Assembly (NCBI GenBank): GCA_018648805.1
Contig: JABGQM010000012.1
Coordinates: forward strand, 1-64,000
Origin: Verrucomicrobiota bacterium
GTDB lineage: Bacteria; Verrucomicrobiota; Kiritimatiellia; UBA8416; JABMPJ01
Length of the DNA stretch: 64,000 nucleotides
Direction of reading: 5' to 3'
How positions within the stretch are numbered: position 1 is the stretch's first letter; each line of letters starts with the position of its first letter. The notes below the pieces were generated by a model. That model worked only from the letters and a program-made list of their open reading frames with translations. It did no database searches and was not told where the DNA came from. Position numbers and translations under genes: made by a program. Shown here in pieces: positions 31,963 through 41,014 of this stretch.

Positions 31963-33453
31963 CTAAAGTCCGAAGAAGTTCCAGATCTTGCTGAGCAGTG
32001 CCTTCTCGGAGGGGACTTCGGACTGGCGCTTGCTGTTGGCCGCCACCGATTCCTGCAGGCTGGCCAGCGCTTCACTGCGCTGCTTAAGCGCCTTGGCGAA
32101 GCCTTCGGCCAGGCTCTTCTTCTCCTTGAGCAAATCGGCCAGGGCTGTGTGTGCGAGCTCCACGACGCGACAGTCGTTCACCGCCACCACGGTCGCGTTG
32201 CGCTCCTCACCGGTGAGAAGACTCATCTCCCCAAAATAGTCACCACGCTGCAACACGGCCAGCTGAGGCGAACTGGCCTCCGCACCGAGGTGGACTGAGG
32301 TGTTGCCTTCCAGAATGATGTAGAACTTGCTGCCTGAAGCCCCCTTGCGGACCAGGACCTCGCCGGCGCCAAAGATCTTCTCCTGCATCCGGGAGGCCAC
32401 CTGGTCGCGCTCTTCCGGCGCGAGGGCGTCGAAGATACTGATCTCGCCCAGCAACGTCCGACAGTCCACCACGGCAGCTTCGTGCTCAAGGGCCTCCTTG
32501 GCAACCACGTCGTTCATGGGCCGCACGTCGCGGATCGGGAACGGGATGACGATGTCTTCACGCTTAAACTCGTACCAGATACGATCCATCATATCACTCT
32601 GGATCTGCTCCAGTTTTCCGAAATCGCGAATGAAGAACTTGACGGTGTAATCGATCGAGAAATCACCGTAGTTGTGGAGCCACACCAGCGGGGCCGGATC
32701 GTTCAGAATTTGCGGCACCGCGTCACAGGCGTGCAGGATGGAGGCACGCACCTTATTGGGCGGCACGCCGTAGTTCACGCCCACCTGCTGAGTGAATCCG
32801 TGGCTGCGGGTCGGACGTGAATAGTTGAGGATATACTCACGCGCGATAGTAGCGTTAGGGATGATGATGTGGTCCAGCGTCTTGGTCTGCAGGCGCGTGG
32901 CACGCCAGGTCATGTCGCTGACGCGGCCGACAAAGTCGCCGACGCGGACCCAATCCCCGATCGAGAACGGTCGCTCTCCGGTCAAGGCCAGGCCGGCAAT
33001 CAGGTTGCCGAGCGTATCCTGGGAAGCATTACCGAGGATGTAACCGACGACGATCGTGGAGAAGGCCAGGAACTTGAGATTGAGGTCGGGGTACATGTGC
33101 TTGAGGATCAAGTAGATCGCCAGCGAGAGGAATACCCAGCGACAGGTGGCACGCAACACCACCGGCACCGGCAGGCCGCGGCGGTGGTGCACGACCACCT
33201 CAAACATGACAATGTCGAGCAGCCGAATGACGATATAGGCAAACGTGCAGAAGAGCGACGCATAGACGATGCGGGCGTAGCCCTGCTCGATATGTGACCC
33301 CATAAAGAACGAGATCGAGGAGACGAGAAAAAGGATATTAAGGGACCCGCGGAAGCGGGCCAATGCCTTGAACCGCTTGAGCAGGTAGAGCGCCCCGCTC
33401 AGGGCAGCAAACGCCATCAGCGTTTGAATGGCATCCATGACCAGATCGTTCAT
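31963..33453 (-). CDS. MscS-family channel with C-terminal cyclic-nucleotide-binding domain
   Basis: The 496-residue protein has four membrane helices (about residues 10-110), then the MscS pore and beta domain (VGYILGNASQDTLGNLIAGLAL, GDWVRVGDFVGRVSDMTWRATRLQT and IIIPNATIAREYI), and ends with a cNMP-binding fold (about residues 340-455; GEVLVRKGASGSKFYIILEGN and LQRGDYFGEMSLLTGEERNATVVA). The fusion suggests a channel gated by a cyclic nucleotide as well as by membrane tension. Its gene is immediately upstream, on the minus strand, of nothing else except the repeat-containing gap, and it is followed on that strand by a spacer only. Confidence 0.93.
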   Translation of the reverse strand: MNDLVMDAIQTLMAFAALSGALYLLKRFKALARFRGSLNILFLVSSISFFMGSHIEQGYARIVYASLFCTFAYIVIRLLDIVMFEVVVHHRRGLPVPVVLRATCRWVFLSLAIYLILKHMYPDLNLKFLAFSTIVVGYILGNASQDTLGNLIAGLALTGERPFSIGDWVRVGDFVGRVSDMTWRATRLQTKTLDHIIIPNATIAREYILNYSRPTRSHGFTQQVGVNYGVPPNKVRASILHACDAVPQILNDPAPLVWLHNYGDFSIDYTVKFFIRDFGKLEQIQSDMMDRIWYEFKREDIVIPFPIRDVRPMNDVVAKEALEHEAAVVDCRTLLGEISIFDALAPEERDQVASRMQEKIFGAGEVLVRKGASGSKFYIILEGNTSVHLGAEASSPQLAVLQRGDYFGEMSLLTGEERNATVVAVNDCRVVELAHTALADLLKEKKSLAEGFAKALKQRSEALASLQESVAANSKRQSEVPSEKALLSKIWNFFGL

Positions 33454-33475: not shown

Positions 33476-34465
33476 TTAGAAACGCAGGCCCGCCGAAGCC
33501 GAGAAAGCCGCCACCACGTTTTCAATACCGGCCCCGTCAGGACTCATCGACTCGGCGCCGCCGAGTCCCTCTTTGGAGTAGAGGTCGCCGGTGAACTCGG
33601 GGATGACCTGAGCATCAATCGCCCCGGAAATAAAGAAGGTCTCAGTAAGGTCAATACTGACATCACCGCCGAAGGCCAGGAAGTCGCCCCCTTCGAACTC
33701 CTCGCGGAAGTAGAGGTTACGGAAGATGTGGTGATCCTTGTCTTCTGCGATCACGAACGGGCTATAGAGCAGGTAGGCCGAGGCCCGCACGCTGGAGCCA
33801 CTCGTGGCAAGCTGCACGCCAAAATAGGGAATATCGAAGGTCTGCTCATAGTCGATCCCGTTCTCGCCGCCGAACGATCCGCGATCGTCACGGAAACCGG
33901 CGCTCGAATAAATGTAGCTGCCGCCGTAATCGCTCCACTCCCAGAAGTCGTGCTTGTAGCCAATGATGCCGCTGCAGGTGAAGATGCCCAGGTCGAAGAG
34001 TTCCAGTGACGCATTCACATCGATGCTGTAAGCCGCCTCAATGTCGACATCACTTTCGGAGTAGTGGGTCCAGTCCGAAATCGAGCTATCCAGCCAGTCG
34101 TAGTCTTCCATGCCGCCGCTGCCCTCGTTCAGACCAAACCAGGCTCCGGCGTTGATCCGAAAGCGTTCGCCAAACTGGGCGGAGACGGTGCCACCCGCCA
34201 TGGCCAGCGAGGTAATATCCCATATCAGCTCTGACACCTGGTAGTCGGCCGGAAGATCGCGCGACGCCGACCCGGCATAGACGAGTTCACGCGCTTCACC
34301 GCCAACGACAAGCAGAGATGCTTTGACCGAAAGGGAAAAGCCGTTGACATCAGCCAACGGGAGCTCAGCCCCTTCATTGGCATGCAGGGCCAGTACAGTA
34401 TTTGCAGAGAGCGTCAGCACCAGGGCCAACCCCACGAGAACAGGAATCCGATAACAGTTAGACAT
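33476..34465 (-). CDS. Omptin-family outer-membrane aspartic protease
   Basis: Omptins are beta-barrel endoproteases of the outer membrane. The N-terminus is a signal peptide (VLVGLALVLTLSANTVLA). The family landmarks are VSELIWDI, GMEDYDWLDSS with the catalytic Asp121 and Asp123, GGSYIYSSAGFRDD, an YEQTFDIPYFGV strand, the DKDHH segment giving catalytic Asp244 and His246, and the C-terminal GAGIENVVAAFSASAGLRF. Spacings match OmpT's Asp83/Asp85 and Asp210/His212 dyads. The terminal Phe is normal for an outer-membrane barrel. Omptins are best known from gamma-proteobacteria, so finding one here is unusual. The upstream neighbour on the same strand is a large subtilase. Confidence 0.87.
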   Translation of the reverse strand: MSNCYRIPVLVGLALVLTLSANTVLALHANEGAELPLADVNGFSLSVKASLLVVGGEARELVYAGSASRDLPADYQVSELIWDITSLAMAGGTVSAQFGERFRINAGAWFGLNEGSGGMEDYDWLDSSISDWTHYSESDVDIEAAYSIDVNASLELFDLGIFTCSGIIGYKHDFWEWSDYGGSYIYSSAGFRDDRGSFGGENGIDYEQTFDIPYFGVQLATSGSSVRASAYLLYSPFVIAEDKDHHIFRNLYFREEFEGGDFLAFGGDVSIDLTETFFISGAIDAQVIPEFTGDLYSKEGLGGAESMSPDGAGIENVVAAFSASAGLRF

Positions 34466-34547
34466 ACAGCCTCCTTATTTAGGTTTCAATCAATCTGGGC
34501 TGAATGAGAGCGTTTTGCAAGTCGATTCCCGGCGTCGTACGGGCAGG

Positions 34548-37500
34548 CTACTCAACACCCAGTCGATAGAAACGCTGCCCGGCCTGTTCGACGCGATCGG
34601 TATGGCTCATGCCACCGTCGACACCGGGCAGGTTGGAGGCGGTCACGAGCGGCAACCAGTTGCCGCTCTGCTCCATCAGCGTGGTGCTGCCATAGAGGTG
34701 GTAGGTGCGATTGCTCAGGCCACGCCATTCAAGCACGACGACCGTGCCCGAAGGCGACGCGGCGGTGTGCACGGCATCCAGGCCGAACCGGCTGGCCGGG
34801 TCCGACGCGTCATGGCCGGTCAGCAGCTCTTCATCCGTGGTGAACCCGTCGGCATCGAAATCGTTCGTCCCCGCCAGCACGAGCACCGGCTGTGTGGCCG
34901 CGGCACCGATCCAGCCGGCGGCATCGCGCGCCCAGACGTGAATGGTGTTGGTGGCGTCGGGCAGGGCGTTGCTGAGCACGCCGTCAGCGCTCACGCTGAA
35001 GGTGCCGCCGGTGCTGCCGCCCGCATTGGTCCAGGCGTAGTAGTAGCCGGTGATGCCGGATAGATTATCGCTGAGGCCGCTCCACTGGCTGGTCACGCTA
35101 TGGCCGACCACATAGTCGCCAAACGGGTTCATGCTCGGTGTGATAACCGCATGGGTCGGACTGGGCGGTTGCGTGTCAACGCGGGCCGGACCAATCGTGA
35201 TGGGCGGACTGGCGTTTCCAAAGGCATCTACGGCGCGCAGATCAAACCACCAGTTGGTACCGTCCGAGCCGACGGTCTCGATACCGTTGGTCAGCACCGT
35301 ATCCACGACGCTGTTGGAGTGCGTAGTGGGATGCAGGCCATGACCGAGGGCATAGCCGGCCAGCCCGACCCCGGCCCGGTCGTGTGACCCGCTCCAGTGG
35401 AGGGCGAAAGCGCGATTCGTGGCCCAGGTGTCGTTCGTGTAACTGGTGAAGGCCAGGGCCTCTGGGGAGGTGGGGGCCTCGTTGTCGACCATGAAGGGGG
35501 TGCTGGTCACGGCGGGACTCCAGGCACGCCCGTCCCAGGCGCGCACGCGCACCACGGCGGTCGTAACGCCGTTGATCGGGGTGGGGCCGTCCAAAGTCAG
35601 CCAGCCGGTGGTGACGCGGTTGGTTGCGTTCAGGCCGGCCAAGGCGGTCGCAATGTCACCGACCTGCAGCGGGGCATTGCTGCTGACCGTCACGCCACTC
35701 AATTGGCTCGCGCTATCGCCGATCCAGGCGTGCACCCACGCTCCGGTGGCGGTCATCACATCGATTTCCAAGCTACAGCTCTCACCATCGGCATCCCACA
35801 GCTCATTCGTGATGGCGACCCGTCCGGAGCCGTCGGTCGAGGTCTGATGCGCCGCAAGCAGGGCCAATTGCGGCGGAGAGCGCACCCACATCTGCACGGG
35901 AATATCATTCGTGGGGTGGAGCGGATCCGTAGCCGTCAGGCGCACGACCCCCGGGAAGTCGCCGGTCGGGATCCCGGCGCTGTCGAGACGCGCGGTCACC
36001 ACGCTACTCTCTCCGGGTGCGAGGGTGCCGGCGGGGGGCAGTACACTCAGCCAGTCGGGGCTGGCCGCGGCCGGGATCACGAGCAGATCATCGATATACC
36101 ACCCTTCGTCCACGACATACCTATCGCTCCCGAAGCGGAAGCGCACCCTGACGGTCTGGCCGGCATAGGCGGAGAGATCGAAGGCCGCGCGCTGCCATCC
36201 GGACCCATCGCCGCCGTAGCAGGGCGTGTGGTCGGCAAAGGGCGAGTCCAGGTTGGGTGTGATGCGGTGCGGGTAACCGCCGATCGGTGTGATCTGCGTG
36301 AAGCTGACGCCGTCGTCGGTGGAGAGCTCGACAATGCCGCCATCCCAGTAGTGGTCGTCCTGGCGCTCATCATCATACTCGATCTTGGCCCAATGCTTGA
36401 AGGTCAGCTCGGCACCGGCGGCGGGCGTGAAGGGCGGCAGGATCAGCGATGCGTTGACCAGGTTGCCGTACTGGTGCGTCGCCGATTTGCCGCTGTACCA
36501 GGCATGCGTGCCGCTGAAGGCACGGCGGGTCGTCCTGTGCCAGGCGTCGTTGACCCCGCTGTGGGTGATGCCGTTGAGGCCCTGCTCCACGGGATCAAAC
36601 CAGCCGGCCTGGGCGGTCCAGGTCAGGCTGGTATTGCCGCCGTTGGTCAGGCCCACGTCTATGTGGGTGACGCTGTCGGGGGGGAGGACCTCGGCAATAG
36701 TGGTGGGGCTGAAGCTGAAGATGGGATAGACCACATCGAAGCGGTAGGTGGGGGTCTGGTCGGAATAGCCGGCCGGATCGATGGCCGTGATGCGGTACTC
36801 ATAGGTTTGACCAAAGCTGCCGGGGGCCGGAATATCCGCCCGGTACAGATCGTCGCCCTCGGCCGTCATGGGGGTCTGGTTCCATCCGTAGGGTACCTGG
36901 CGCCAGTGCAGGGCGACGTCGGCCACGCTGAAGTTGTCGGTGACCACGGCGGAGACGGACCACGGGGCCGGCCGGTCCTGCGGATCGGCCAGGGGCGTGA
37001 GTGTGATCAGGGGGGGGGCCGGATAGGATGCGCTATCGCGCGGATCGGTACCATCAGCCAGCTCCTCATCATTGCGGAACCCGTCGCCATCACGGTCATC
37101 GGCGATCGTCGGGGTTAGCGATCCAAAGTAGCGACGTTCCCACCAGTCAGGCAGCGTATCGCTATCACTATCCTCGCTGGCCGGAATATAGATTGCGACC
37201 GCCTGCCGCGCGGTGGCCATACCGATGTGGGTGGCCGGGTTGAGGGCTGTATTGGTGCCATCCGGCCAGCGCAGGCCATCCATCTGCCATTCGACAAACC
37301 GCTGTGCGGTGGTATTGACCATGACTGGATCCATAGCCGTCACGGTCAAGCCGGTCGCTCCCGCCTCCCACCAGGAGACATCCGCCACCAGGCCGGTCGG
37401 CGAGGAGGATTGCGCCAGGCTGTATTGCGACTGCCACTGCCACTCCAACGCCGTCATGTCATCCAGGACGAACGTGACCGCATTGGTGTGACCGATCGAG

Positions 37501-39578
37501 GGCGCGCTGCCGATCGCATGCCACCCGCTGCATTCATAGCGGTGTTGCGGCGTGATGTTGGCCAGGCGATCGGCCGACGCCTGCACGGCGATACCTGACG
37601 GGATGTCGTGCATGCCGTACGCCGGGGTGGCCGTGCCGAGATCGGACGGCGCCCCCGAGACCCAGAGCATCTCTGACTGCACGACCTCGAACGCGTGCTG
37701 CTCGAGCGGGGCGACGCTTGGGGTGGTCATACTCACCCCGCCGATGGTGGTGGCCTCGATGTAGTAATGGACGCGTGTGCCCAATGGCTGAACCGGCAGT
37801 GTGGCCTCATACAGATCATTGGTGAGACGGACCATGACGTTGGTGGTATGGACCGTGGTCGAGCCATTCGTATTCCAGAGCAGGCGCGGGCTATCCGGCG
37901 TGAGAAGATTGACCGGTGTGACGGTGGCATCAAAGCGGTGATCGTCCTCGGTATTGGTTGTATTCACGAGCGGGGTGTGCGCGATCGCCGGGGGGATGCT
38001 GTGCAGCGCGCCCGCGACATCCAGACGCCCGCCGCTAACGATCTTGCCTGCGAGCACGGCGTTGGTTGCCACGCCAGCCATGATGTAGCTGCGCACCTGC
38101 TCCCAGGTCGCCTCCGGATAGGCCTCCCAGAGCAGGGCACAGGCCCCCGCGACATGGGGGCAGGCCATTGAGGTGCCGCTGTCACTGTAGTAGGTGCTGT
38201 TGTTGGTGCCCTTATAGGTGCTCAGGATGCTGGTTCCGGGCGCGCCGATGTCGACCGTCCGCACGCCGAAGTGCGAGAAGTAAGCCAGAGCATCCGAACT
38301 GACCGTCGCGGCCACGGAGAGGATATTGCTCGAATCGTACGTGGCCGGATAGAAGGGCTGGGTGTCGTTGTTCCAGCCGAAGTTGCCAGCGGCCGCCACG
38401 AACAGCATGCCGGCCTCGCCGGTGGCCTCAATCGTCTCCTTGAGCAGCAGGGAGTATCCGCCGCCGCCCCAGCTGTTGCTGGTGAGCCGGACCGGCACCC
38501 CGTTGGTACGCATGACGCGCGCATACTCGAGGGCATCGATGGCATCACTTGTCGCGCCACTCCCGCTGTCGCCGAACATCTTGAGCACCATCAGCCTGGA
38601 ACTCCATGAGACACCGACGACCCCGGTGCTGTTGTTGCCGATCGCGGCTACAGTACCGGCCGTGTGCGTGCCGTGGCCTGAATTGATGTCGATCGGGTTG
38701 TTATCGTCATCGCCGAAATCCCATCCATGCACGTCATCGATATAGCCATTGGCATCGTCATCAATCCCGTTGGTCGGCGTTTCATTCGGATTGGTCCATA
38801 TATTGCCCGCGAGATCCTCGTGGTTATAGTTGACGCCCGAATCGATCATGCCCACCACGATAGCGCCGTTTCCGGTTTCAATGTCCCAGGCGGCAGGACA
38901 GTTCACCTTCTTGATGCCCCACAGGTCGTCGTAACGGGGATCGTCCGGCACGGTGTCGGCTGGCGCGACCAGGTAGTCGGGCTCGGCTACATCGGCAATC
39001 GCCGGCGCGGCGCGGTAGTCGGCCACGCGGGCAGGCACCGTGTGCAGATCAAAGACGTCAAAGGCCACCAGGTAGTGGCCGGGCCGTTTCAGGCGGCGGC
39101 GGATCGTGCCCCCATATCGCGCATTGAGTGTCTCCAGCTCCGCCGACGAGGCATCCGGATGGAGTCGCAGCATGATATGATCGGCCACCATGGCGACGCG
39201 CCACACGGTGACGGTCTCTCCGGAAGTTGCATCCGTCCGGCGCGTGGTTTCTTCACGGATGTAGGGATATTTACCCCCGGTCCTGAGCAGGCGCGTACGG
39301 TGCGAGATCCCTTCCGCGTCCGGCGGGGTCTCTTCCTGCGCCAGCACATCGGCCCCGGCATAAGTGGGCGGGGACAGCGGCGTGACCGGCATGGCGGGGG
39401 CGGCCGGCCGGCGCGGCGTAGCGGGAGCAGACGCGCGGCGCGGCGTGATGAGAGGCGTTGTGGGCGGGCGGGCCGCAGAGCCGGGGCGGGGCACAGGTGG
39501 CTGGCGCCGTGCCACCAGAAGGAGAAGCACGGCCAGCGTCAGTCCCAGTCCAAACCAAACTCTGCCCTTTGAAATCAC
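34548..39578 (-). CDS. Giant secreted subtilisin-like (S8) serine protease, 1676 residues
   Basis: After an uncleaved-type hydrophobic segment (VWFGLGLTLAVLLLLVA) and a Pro/Ala-rich spacer lies an I9-like propeptide and then an S8 domain with the triad Asp246 (MIDSGVNY), His302 (GHGTHTAG) and Ser470 (SGTSMACPH), and the oxyanion Asn in AAAGNFG. More than 1100 residues follow, holding beta-sandwich and fibronectin-like modules and a calcium-binding-like DSDSDTLPDWWERRYFG segment near residue 810. The C-terminal ends with a beta-rich domain. It is likely exported to the surface or medium as a scavenging or processing protease. The AT-content is like that of neighbours, with no evidence of frameshift. 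Confidence 0.92.
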   Translation of the reverse strand: MISKGRVWFGLGLTLAVLLLLVARRQPPVPRPGSAARPPTTPLITPRRASAPATPRRPAAPAMPVTPLSPPTYAGADVLAQEETPPDAEGISHRTRLLRTGGKYPYIREETTRRTDATSGETVTVWRVAMVADHIMLRLHPDASSAELETLNARYGGTIRRRLKRPGHYLVAFDVFDLHTVPARVADYRAAPAIADVAEPDYLVAPADTVPDDPRYDDLWGIKKVNCPAAWDIETGNGAIVVGMIDSGVNYNHEDLAGNIWTNPNETPTNGIDDDANGYIDDVHGWDFGDDDNNPIDINSGHGTHTAGTVAAIGNNSTGVVGVSWSSRLMVLKMFGDSGSGATSDAIDALEYARVMRTNGVPVRLTSNSWGGGGYSLLLKETIEATGEAGMLFVAAAGNFGWNNDTQPFYPATYDSSNILSVAATVSSDALAYFSHFGVRTVDIGAPGTSILSTYKGTNNSTYYSDSGTSMACPHVAGACALLWEAYPEATWEQVRSYIMAGVATNAVLAGKIVSGGRLDVAGALHSIPPAIAHTPLVNTTNTEDDHRFDATVTPVNLLTPDSPRLLWNTNGSTTVHTTNVMVRLTNDLYEATLPVQPLGTRVHYYIEATTIGGVSMTTPSVAPLEQHAFEVVQSEMLWVSGAPSDLGTATPAYGMHDIPSGIAVQASADRLANITPQHRYECSGWHAIGSAPSIGHTNAVTFVLDDMTALEWQWQSQYSLAQSSSPTGLVADVSWWEAGATGLTVTAMDPVMVNTTAQRFVEWQMDGLRWPDGTNTALNPATHIGMATARQAVAIYIPASEDSDSDTLPDWWERRYFGSLTPTIADDRDGDGFRNDEELADGTDPRDSASYPAPPLITLTPLADPQDRPAPWSVSAVVTDNFSVADVALHWRQVPYGWNQTPMTAEGDDLYRADIPAPGSFGQTYEYRITAIDPAGYSDQTPTYRFDVVYPIFSFSPTTIAEVLPPDSVTHIDVGLTNGGNTSLTWTAQAGWFDPVEQGLNGITHSGVNDAWHRTTRRAFSGTHAWYSGKSATHQYGNLVNASLILPPFTPAAGAELTFKHWAKIEYDDERQDDHYWDGGIVELSTDDGVSFTQITPIGGYPHRITPNLDSPFADHTPCYGGDGSGWQRAAFDLSAYAGQTVRVRFRFGSDRYVVDEGWYIDDLLVIPAAASPDWLSVLPPAGTLAPGESSVVTARLDSAGIPTGDFPGVVRLTATDPLHPTNDIPVQMWVRSPPQLALLAAHQTSTDGSGRVAITNELWDADGESCSLEIDVMTATGAWVHAWIGDSASQLSGVTVSSNAPLQVGDIATALAGLNATNRVTTGWLTLDGPTPINGVTTAVVRVRAWDGRAWSPAVTSTPFMVDNEAPTSPEALAFTSYTNDTWATNRAFALHWSGSHDRAGVGLAGYALGHGLHPTTHSNSVVDTVLTNGIETVGSDGTNWWFDLRAVDAFGNASPPITIGPARVDTQPPSPTHAVITPSMNPFGDYVVGHSVTSQWSGLSDNLSGITGYYYAWTNAGGSTGGTFSVSADGVLSNALPDATNTIHVWARDAAGWIGAAATQPVLVLAGTNDFDADGFTTDEELLTGHDASDPASRFGLDAVHTAASPSGTVVVLEWRGLSNRTYHLYGSTTLMEQSGNWLPLVTASNLPGVDGGMSHTDRVEQAGQRFYRLGVE

Positions 39579-39626: not shown

Positions 39627-40148
39627 CTAGTAGACCACCGGTGCAAAGACCGTGTAGCCGGGCAGCTTGTCGCGGCCGTTGAGAAAAGCCAACTCGACGA
39701 CAAAGAGCATCGTGGCGACCGAGGCGCCACACTGCTCGATCAGCTGGGCCGTGGCAAGGGCAGTACCGCCCGTGGCGAGAAGATCATCGATAACCGCCAC
39801 GCGTTCGCCCGCTTCGAAGGCGTCCCGGTGGACGGCCAGCGTGGCGGTGCCATATTCCAGGTCATAGCTCTGCTCATAGGTCTGATAGGGCAGCTTGCCC
39901 TGTTTGCGGATCGGGACCATGCCGATATCGAGGCGATCCGCGATGGCCCCGGCAAAGAGGAACCCGCGCGCATCGATCGCCGCCAGCTTCGTAACCGCGG
40001 CCGCGCGGACCTGTTCGGTCAGGATATCGATCGTGGCTTTGAAGAGGGTCGGGTCACTCAGGATGGGGGTAATGTCCTTGAAGATGATGCCCGGCTTCGG
40101 AAAATCAGGAACGTCGCGAATAGCGGCCCGGATCTGTTCTGCGCTCAT
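39627..40148 (-). CDS. apt: Adenine phosphoribosyltransferase
   Basis: Apt converts adenine and PRPP to AMP in purine salvage. The sequence begins IRDVPDFPKPGIIFKDITPIL and contains DARGFLFAGAIA, KQGKLPYQTYEQSYDLEYG and the PRPP-binding loop VAVIDDLLATGGTA. At 173 residues it is full length. The ATG has AAAGGAGACCC upstream (AGGAG about 7 bases away). A 48-base gap separates it from the subtilase. Confidence 0.95.
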   Translation of the reverse strand: MSAEQIRAAIRDVPDFPKPGIIFKDITPILSDPTLFKATIDILTEQVRAAAVTKLAAIDARGFLFAGAIADRLDIGMVPIRKQGKLPYQTYEQSYDLEYGTATLAVHRDAFEAGERVAVIDDLLATGGTALATAQLIEQCGASVATMLFVVELAFLNGRDKLPGYTVFAPVVY

Positions 40149-40204
40149 AGAGGGTCTCCTTTGAATCGTTTGTGAGAGCCCCTACGGGTCGCCGTGGGAG
40201 CCGT

Positions 40205-40570
40205 TTACACCGTTGAAGGCGGCATGGCATACTGTTTGACAGCCTTGAGGATCGCGTCCAGCTCGAACGGTTTCTGGATCAACGTGGTCACGTTATCGAA
40301 CTGTTTCATCTCATCTTCTTCATAGTCAGAGAAGCCGGCCATGACGATCGTGGGGATGTGAATATCCTCGGCCTGCATCAGCATCAGCAGTTCCACGCCA
40401 TTGATGCGTGGCATGTTCATATCGAGCAAAATGCATTTGCAGTCGGAGGATCGCAAATGGGAGTAGGCATCCGCGCCGTCATGGGCGGTTTCGACGCGAT
40501 AGCCATGCTGGCTCAGCGCACGGGTGAGCAAGTCCACAATCCCCGGATCATCATCAACAACCAGTATCAT
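40205..40570 (-). CDS. Single-domain response regulator
   Basis: The 121-residue protein is a bare receiver domain: MILVVDDDPGIVDLLTRAL (acidic pair), ILLDMNMPRINGVELL with the phosphoacceptor Asp, and the lysine in LIQKPFELDAIL. There is no output domain, so it would act as a phospho-relay or CheY-like protein. The ATG at 40570 has GGAGGAGG 6 bases upstream; a longer start would extend into a region with no family similarity. No histidine kinase is adjacent. Confidence 0.92.
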   Translation of the reverse strand: MILVVDDDPGIVDLLTRALSQHGYRVETAHDGADAYSHLRSSDCKCILLDMNMPRINGVELLMLMQAEDIHIPTIVMAGFSDYEEDEMKQFDNVTTLIQKPFELDAILKAVKQYAMPPSTV

Positions 40571-40637
40571 AACATCCTCCTCCAACGGCCCTAGTCTACG
40601 CCTCACGGACACATAGCCACAAGGACGGATTGTCGTA

Positions 40638-40665
40638 TTGACATCCCACGAGCAGATGCTATCTT
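40638..40665 (+). promoter_or_regulatory. Sigma-70-type promoter for tRNA-Asn
   Basis: A consensus -35 box TTGACA (40638-40643) and a -10 box TATCTT (40660-40665) are separated by 16 bases. The tRNA starts 19 bases downstream of the -10 box, which gives a short leader that would be removed by RNase P. Confidence 0.65.
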
Positions 40666-40684
40666 ATGCGCCCATTCGAAGTGT

Positions 40685-40759
40685 TCCGGCGTAGCTCAAT
40701 GGTAGAGCGGATGGCTGTTAACCATTAGGTTGTAGGTTCGAGCCCTACCGCCGGAGCCA
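40685..40759 (+). tRNA. tRNA-Asn (anticodon GTT)
   Basis: The acceptor stem is TCCGGCG paired with CGCCGGA; G is the discriminator and CCA is encoded. The D arm reads GCTCAATGGTAGAGC. The anticodon stem GATGG/CCATT encloses the loop CTGTTAA with anticodon GTT, and the T arm has GTTCGAGCCC. The structure is complete. Confidence 0.97.
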
Positions 40760-40959
40760 TTTTCCTTATTCCGACCCTCAAGGCCATCTTGTGCCATGCT
40801 GTGCACATAGCCTTCCTGGGCAAGGGGTTCCCGATCCGATACACGGCATATCGTCTGTGCCTGTGCATGCCAGCTCCTGCCCCTCTGAACCTACACCTCA
40901 CTAGCCGTTACATGCTTATATTTATTCTTGACAGGCTGAGGTTTTATGCGATGGTAGTA

Positions 40960-41014
40960 CCACTACACTCAAACATACTTCTGCCGCCGGCAGAAGCATG
41001 TTTGAGTGTAGTGG
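40960..41014. repeat. 55-nt near-perfect palindrome upstream of the Fic gene
   Basis: Two 27-base arms (beginning CCACTACACTCAAACATACT and ending the complement) differ at one position and are separated by one base. The stem would be one of the longest in the window. The centre is GC-rich (CTGCCGCCGGCAG). No T-run follows, so it is not an obvious terminator. The rest of 40760-41126 contains no other gene I can support. Confidence 0.87.

Follow-up and report, generated by a model that had tools for sequence, protein, structure and literature searches.

A conserved omptin-family protease predicted in a genus of Kiritimatiellia, with the lipid A phosphate-binding arginine pair replaced

The nearest described counterparts of the protein considered here are the omptins Pla of Yersinia pestis (PDB 2x4m, 2x55, 2x56) and OmpT of Escherichia coli K-12 (PDB 1i78; MG1655 b0565). 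According to the published account, omptins need rough lipopolysaccharide (LPS), with R138 and R171 of Pla forming the site for the 4'-phosphate of lipid A and with Y134 and E136 contacting the acyl chains (PMC3724046). This lipid A phosphate site has been called conserved among omptins, which are also described as spread by horizontal transfer (PMC3048539). In OmpT, Glu27 and Asp208 make up the S1 pocket and Asp97 contributes S1', underlying the preference for dibasic sites (PMC11410778), and the histidine at OmpT H101 has been reported as necessary in Pla, where D84 and H208 are ~4.7 Å apart (PMC7696990). Descriptions of omptins from Kiritimatiellia or deltaproteobacteria were not found in the literature searched, most subscription journals being outside its coverage, and the same search, including passages of PMC4827864 and PMC5406399, returned no description of members from Desulfobacterota or Spirochaetota.

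The gene analysed here lies on a contig of a Kiritimatiellia genome, in a stretch of 64,000 nucleotides that was examined as a whole and is called the window below (Table 1). Its product matched the Pfam Omptin family across nearly the full profile (positions 4-281 of 283; E 6.9e-45), scoring 153.7 bits against a curated cut-off of 22.6, and all six PDB sequences recovered at E <= 1 were omptin chains, with Pla first (3.6e-26) and OmpT next (1.9e-22). The NCBIfam omptin models were also matched, far under their strict cut-offs (best 159 bits versus 706), as expected for a distant member of the family.

Table 1. Features of the omptin locus, given as positions in the window
Feature	Position	Strand	Details and basis
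Omptin-family outer-membrane protease gene (predicted)	33476..34465, stop codon included	(-)	329 aa, ATG start; PF01278, PDB relatives, AF2 model
Predicted signal peptide, residues 1-26 (MSNCYRIP...NTVLA)	34388..34465	(-)	Sequence reading; cleavage site inferred
Shine-Dalgarno-like AAGGAGG ahead of omptin ATG	34470..34476	(-)	Intergenic sequence
Codons of D121-Y122-D123 (OmpT D83/D85)	34097..34105	(-)	Motif positions and 93-row alignment
Codon of H134 (place of OmpT D97, S1' pocket)	34064..34066	(-)	93-row alignment; D97 role PMC11410778
Codon of F174 (aligned to OmpT R138, which binds lipid A phosphate)	33944..33946	(-)	Alignment; role PMC3724046, in part
Codon of T209 (place of OmpT R175, Pla R171)	33839..33841	(-)	Alignment; role PMC3724046, in part
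Codons of D244-H245-H246 (OmpT D210/H212)	33728..33736	(-)	Motif positions and 93-row alignment
MscS-type channel with cyclic-nucleotide-binding domain	31963..33453	(-)	22 nt downstream of omptin; Pfam; conserved neighbour
Subtilase (S8) with InhA-like MAM domain	34548..39578	(-)	1676 aa, 82 nt upstream of omptin; Peptidase_S8 E 4.5e-53
apt-like phosphoribosyltransferase gene	39627..40148	(-)	Upstream of subtilase; orthologue L031:1381-1905 matches PF00156

An AlphaFold2 (AF2) model, calculated from 50 aligned proteins of the window and the related loci, reached a pLDDT of 89.2 and a pTM of 0.85, and its long strands, which run from residue 43 to residue 328, were counted as a ten-stranded barrel of the OmpT/Pla type. 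With this model as query, the first eleven Foldseek ranks were all Pla, OmpT or pOmpT (TMt 0.83-0.93), and VIA-align returned Z 34.5 for Pla (1.6 Å over 282 residues) and Z 33.9 for OmpT (1.9 Å over 281 residues), the top non-omptin being OpcA at Z 18.2. Pla is thus the nearest solved relative by sequence and fold, sharing the catalytic residues at ~27% identity in the structural alignment. In the model, D121/D123 are found where one strand ends and D244/H246 where another does, beside loops. The catalytic residues are on the strands expected of an omptin. A preliminary description of this DNA had read the gene as an omptin with catalytic Asp121/Asp123 and Asp244/His246 and a GAGIEN...F terminus, and these points held up: the motifs DYDWLD, DKDHH and GAGIEN occupy residues 121-126, 242-246 and 311-316 in precursor numbering, and the protein ends in F329. 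Judged by its sequence and predicted fold, the product is a genuine omptin and no chance match, a member of a known family on an unusual branch, in which fold and chemistry are ordinary and the lineage, remote from the gut bacteria that serve most omptin studies, is what is unusual. Comparable sequences are probably already present in public databases under the same Pfam family.

The predicted signal peptide, modelled with pLDDT <50, contains no lipobox on reading of residues 1-26. A promoter and terminator scan found 3 promoter-like sites where a mean of 2.8 was expected, and 9 terminator-like sites versus a mean of 4.9. Dibasic sites were absent from the omptin itself, and self-protection was considered as an explanation and rejected, because 2594 of 5000 shuffled sequences also lacked them.

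Residues were compared in an alignment of 93 rows with OmpT as reference numbering, in which the catalytic machinery was almost invariant: D85, D210, H212 and S99 were conserved in 93/93 rows, D83 in 92/93, and E27 in 85/93, the remaining eight being seven distant rows (six Y, one D) and one gap. The window omptin has an intact acidic S1 pocket, formed by E60 (OmpT E27) and D242 (OmpT D208). At S1', the aspartate of OmpT and Pla is replaced by H134; this position is histidine in four of the five genus rows and aspartate in the fifth, and it is aspartate in all 23 enteric rows. Given this change, strict dibasic cleavage by the window omptin is doubtful, and a basic residue is probably not required directly behind the cleaved bond. 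Loop-2 H101 of Pla is also absent, its position being gapped throughout the Kiritimatiellia and spirochaete rows, the window included, and activity could therefore differ from that of Pla. The missing H101 would be consistent with a barrel that is no longer a protease and serves as an adhesin, a porin or a structural element, as would two tandem omptins from the same order (L021, genome G168) in which catalytic residues are missing (by eye, E/R in place of D83/D85 in one; N for D83 in the other). Because the window omptin and its four genus relatives all retain the four catalytic residues, S99 and both S1 acids, we regard such a loss of function here as quite improbable, and favor an active endopeptidase.

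A new feature in the alignment is the lipid contact, where the lipid A phosphate-binding arginine pair of enterobacterial omptins is replaced by F174 and T209. Other positions also differ from OmpT, with E136 aligned to H172 and K226 to E258, whereas Y134 is kept as Y170; the aligned part of the window protein has a pI of 4.05, compared with 5.38 for mature OmpT. Positions 138 and 175 were both basic in 23/23 enteric rows (22 with R and one with K at 175) and in 0/70 other rows, a restriction that is valid for these 93 rows only, since very few gamma- and alphaproteobacterial omptins from beyond Enterobacterales were included. Single basic residues occurred among the 70 non-enteric rows in seven cases at 138 and in one at 175. 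The need for LPS therefore cannot be assumed for the window omptin, whose missing pair argues against gating via the R138/R175 site, but not against every LPS effect. Indeed, mutation of all five residues of the motif was reported to leave OmpT with full specific activity and with its LPS response (PMC7356225), so that loss of the motif does not prove LPS independence. Genes for LpxC and LpxK are present in the genome, and the host can thus probably make lipid A. The LptD search gave no match in this genome, a result that is uninformative because it also missed LptD in a control Bacteroides with LpxC and LpxK matches.

The preliminary description had offered either lateral transfer or a wider, overlooked distribution as the reason for an omptin in this lineage, and our survey favors the latter. 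Omptin genes were found in 5/5 genomes of the window's genus and in 54 of the 288 genomes sampled from the class, representing 33/113 genera, and its presence is thus vertical at the level of the genus but patchy across the class; the broad vertical presence that had been named as refuting the idea was seen at the first of these levels and not at the second. In a sample of the phylum, whose share outside the class is not given, 30 of 387 genomes matched, all belonging to the genome itself or to the same genus, order or class. Further relatives were retrieved with a single peptide pattern and ordered by their similarity to the window, with the best 80 of 168 confirmed relatives kept. The closest among these were Kiritimatiellae BS750m-G19 (75%) and Kiritimatiellia Arabian11 (73%), followed by a record titled Lentisphaerae (72%) and Kiritimatiellia GMC6 (51%), the close named relatives, from which the host was judged to belong to Kiritimatiellia, being MAGs. 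The same 80 include omptins in records titled Desulfobacterota, Spirochaetota and enterobacteria. The Desulfobacterota and Spirochaetota omptins (most of L057-L080 and L086-L110) are 28-40% identical to the window protein and keep the catalytic residues; as in the window omptin, both arginines occur together in none of their rows. They differ in forming clades separate from the window and in having alanine at D208 in 15 of the 25 'desulfo' rows. Rows were assigned to groups by the titles of their records and their place in the tree, the 'desulfo' group including L102 (titled Verrucomicrobia), L074 (Alphaproteobacteria), L079 and L080, with L035 assigned to 'kiri' and L100, an Amphibacillus record, to 'entero'. 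The last is an enteric-type omptin in a Firmicute record (Amphibacillus jilinensis, 9.6 kb scaffold) and is probably assembly contamination.

Trees were calculated quickly with all 93 rows and more carefully with 69, the latter omitting L021, L023, L028, L038, L055, L074, L086, L090 and 16 of the 23 enteric rows; A1 took in 19/30 loci, and A3 comprised the window and 49/80 named loci. In the 69-row tree the five genus rows formed one clade (100/99) joined to L035 (100/98), with enterics (100/99) and spirochaetes (99/95) as separate clades and an unresolved backbone between them. The 93-row tree agreed and added L038 to the sister group of the genus with starred support. Recent acquisition of the gene from enterobacteria would be in line with the published view of omptins as horizontally spread (PMC3048539), and a clade uniting the genus with the enterics was rejected neither for the 93-row set (p 0.29) nor for the 69-row set (p 0.055). 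However, nesting of the genus inside the enteric clade was rejected (AU p 1.96e-06), the genus groups with L035 and, in the 93-row tree, L038, and all five genus genomes carry the omptin in a single gene order. Composition does not by itself mark the gene as foreign, with a GC of 0.581 inside the range of neighbouring genes (0.579-0.651) and a GC3 of 0.708 slightly under theirs (0.761-0.833). As judged from the rejected nesting and the shared gene order, the window omptin is not a recent import from enterobacteria, an origin to which we assign only a very slight probability; of the proposed lateral transfer, an older, deep event is the part still compatible with the trees, a sister relation to the enterics not being rejected. 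Monophyly of the 29 Kiritimatiellia rows in the 69-row tree was likewise not rejected (p 0.346), and neither a single nor a multiple origin within Kiritimatiellia is therefore shown.

The omptin lies in a conserved chromosomal block, unlike Pla, which is plasmid-borne. On the minus strand the order is apt, subtilase, omptin and MscS, and orthologues occur in the same order in the other four genus genomes. The neighbouring giant subtilase that had been reported from the initial reading was confirmed as a Peptidase_S8 protein of secreted type whose adjacency to the omptin is retained in 5/5 genus genomes; of the surface-protease pair proposed on that basis, the pairing is real and conserved, and its joint function is inferred. 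The two proteases could form one functional unit in which one matures, releases or regulates the other, as would be consistent with two adjacent, co-oriented and closely spaced genes in a genome with only three S8 places. A different Kiritimatiellia clade has an S41/PDZ peptidase as the gene following the omptin in 10/10 tree rows (L048:6912-8847 and nine more), with a Sua5-type (Sua5/YciO/YrdC) gene next in line. The omptin is thus paired with a second protease in two lineages, and that protease is not the same in both. However, each pairing reflects shared ancestry and counts as one event, the partner varies by clade, and the block also contains the unrelated apt and MscS genes. Because each is one inherited arrangement, joint function is still conjectural, and we consider a single functional unit a tentative and rather unlikely reading. 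The subtilase linker was also considered as an omptin substrate and set aside, as its dibasic sites in the window were not at the same places by eye in the orthologues L031-L034. A further S8 domain of the genome (G000:C58:8148-8912) lies inside an open frame of 3893 residues, and a small response-regulator receiver-like ORF (MILVVDDDPGIVDLL...) is found upstream of the apt-like gene (window 40148-41000, minus strand).

Overall, the gene very probably encodes a secreted outer-membrane beta-barrel aspartyl-type omptin endopeptidase that is native to this Kiritimatiellia genus. The protein would be exported via its signal peptide and inserted by the outer-membrane assembly machinery, consistent with its C-terminal Phe, and the outer-membrane barrel would face outward. 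Its Asp/His couples would activate water for cleavage after Arg or Lys, with a relaxed preference at S1'. Lipid A phosphate would not control this activity by way of the R138/R175 site, but LPS could have an effect at other places. Its likeliest role, in company with the co-oriented subtilase, would be to cut basic peptides or proteins on the surface of the cell, as a means of nutrition, of removing cationic antimicrobial peptides or of processing surface proteins.

A conserved omptin that appears catalytically intact and lacks the lipid A site offers a natural way of testing if the dependence on LPS is a property of the fold or was added in enterobacteria, and, with two changes of note, in substrate contact and in lipid contact, the Kiritimatiellia omptin could serve as an outgroup for tracing the origin of virulence omptins. 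More speculatively, and with less expectation of being right than wrong, we suggest that omptins may be an ancient family of environmental outer-membrane proteases, with much diversity in Kiritimatiellia and with members in Desulfobacterota and Spirochaetota, that cut after single basic residues without lipid A phosphate gating and are often encoded next to another secreted protease of a different class, S8 or S41. The virulence omptins of enterobacteria, LPS-gated and dibasic, would then be derived, having acquired the arginine pair.

The class also contains another, more distant set of omptin-like proteins (L024-L030; Pfam 19-62 bits), which forms its own clade and has DSDW in six of seven members and DRDW in L028, plus DxH, keeping the catalytic Asp/His but not E27. 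The tandem omptins of L021 (320-1369 and 1396-2364), of which the one with E/R also lacks D210 by eye, are a possible pseudoprotease pair. Outside the 93-row counts, four of 22 pattern matches on contigs classed as viral encode omptins (L121-L124), among them L121:344-1483 on an IMG/VR contig; L121 and L122 were examined by ORF list and by eye, and L123 and L124 share the match values of L122. The omptin of L122 lies close to lysozyme- and repressor-like genes, and omptins may therefore travel on phages. By eye it has N at OmpT position 138 and K at 175, and R138 may therefore be missing from a prophage omptin of enteric appearance as well.
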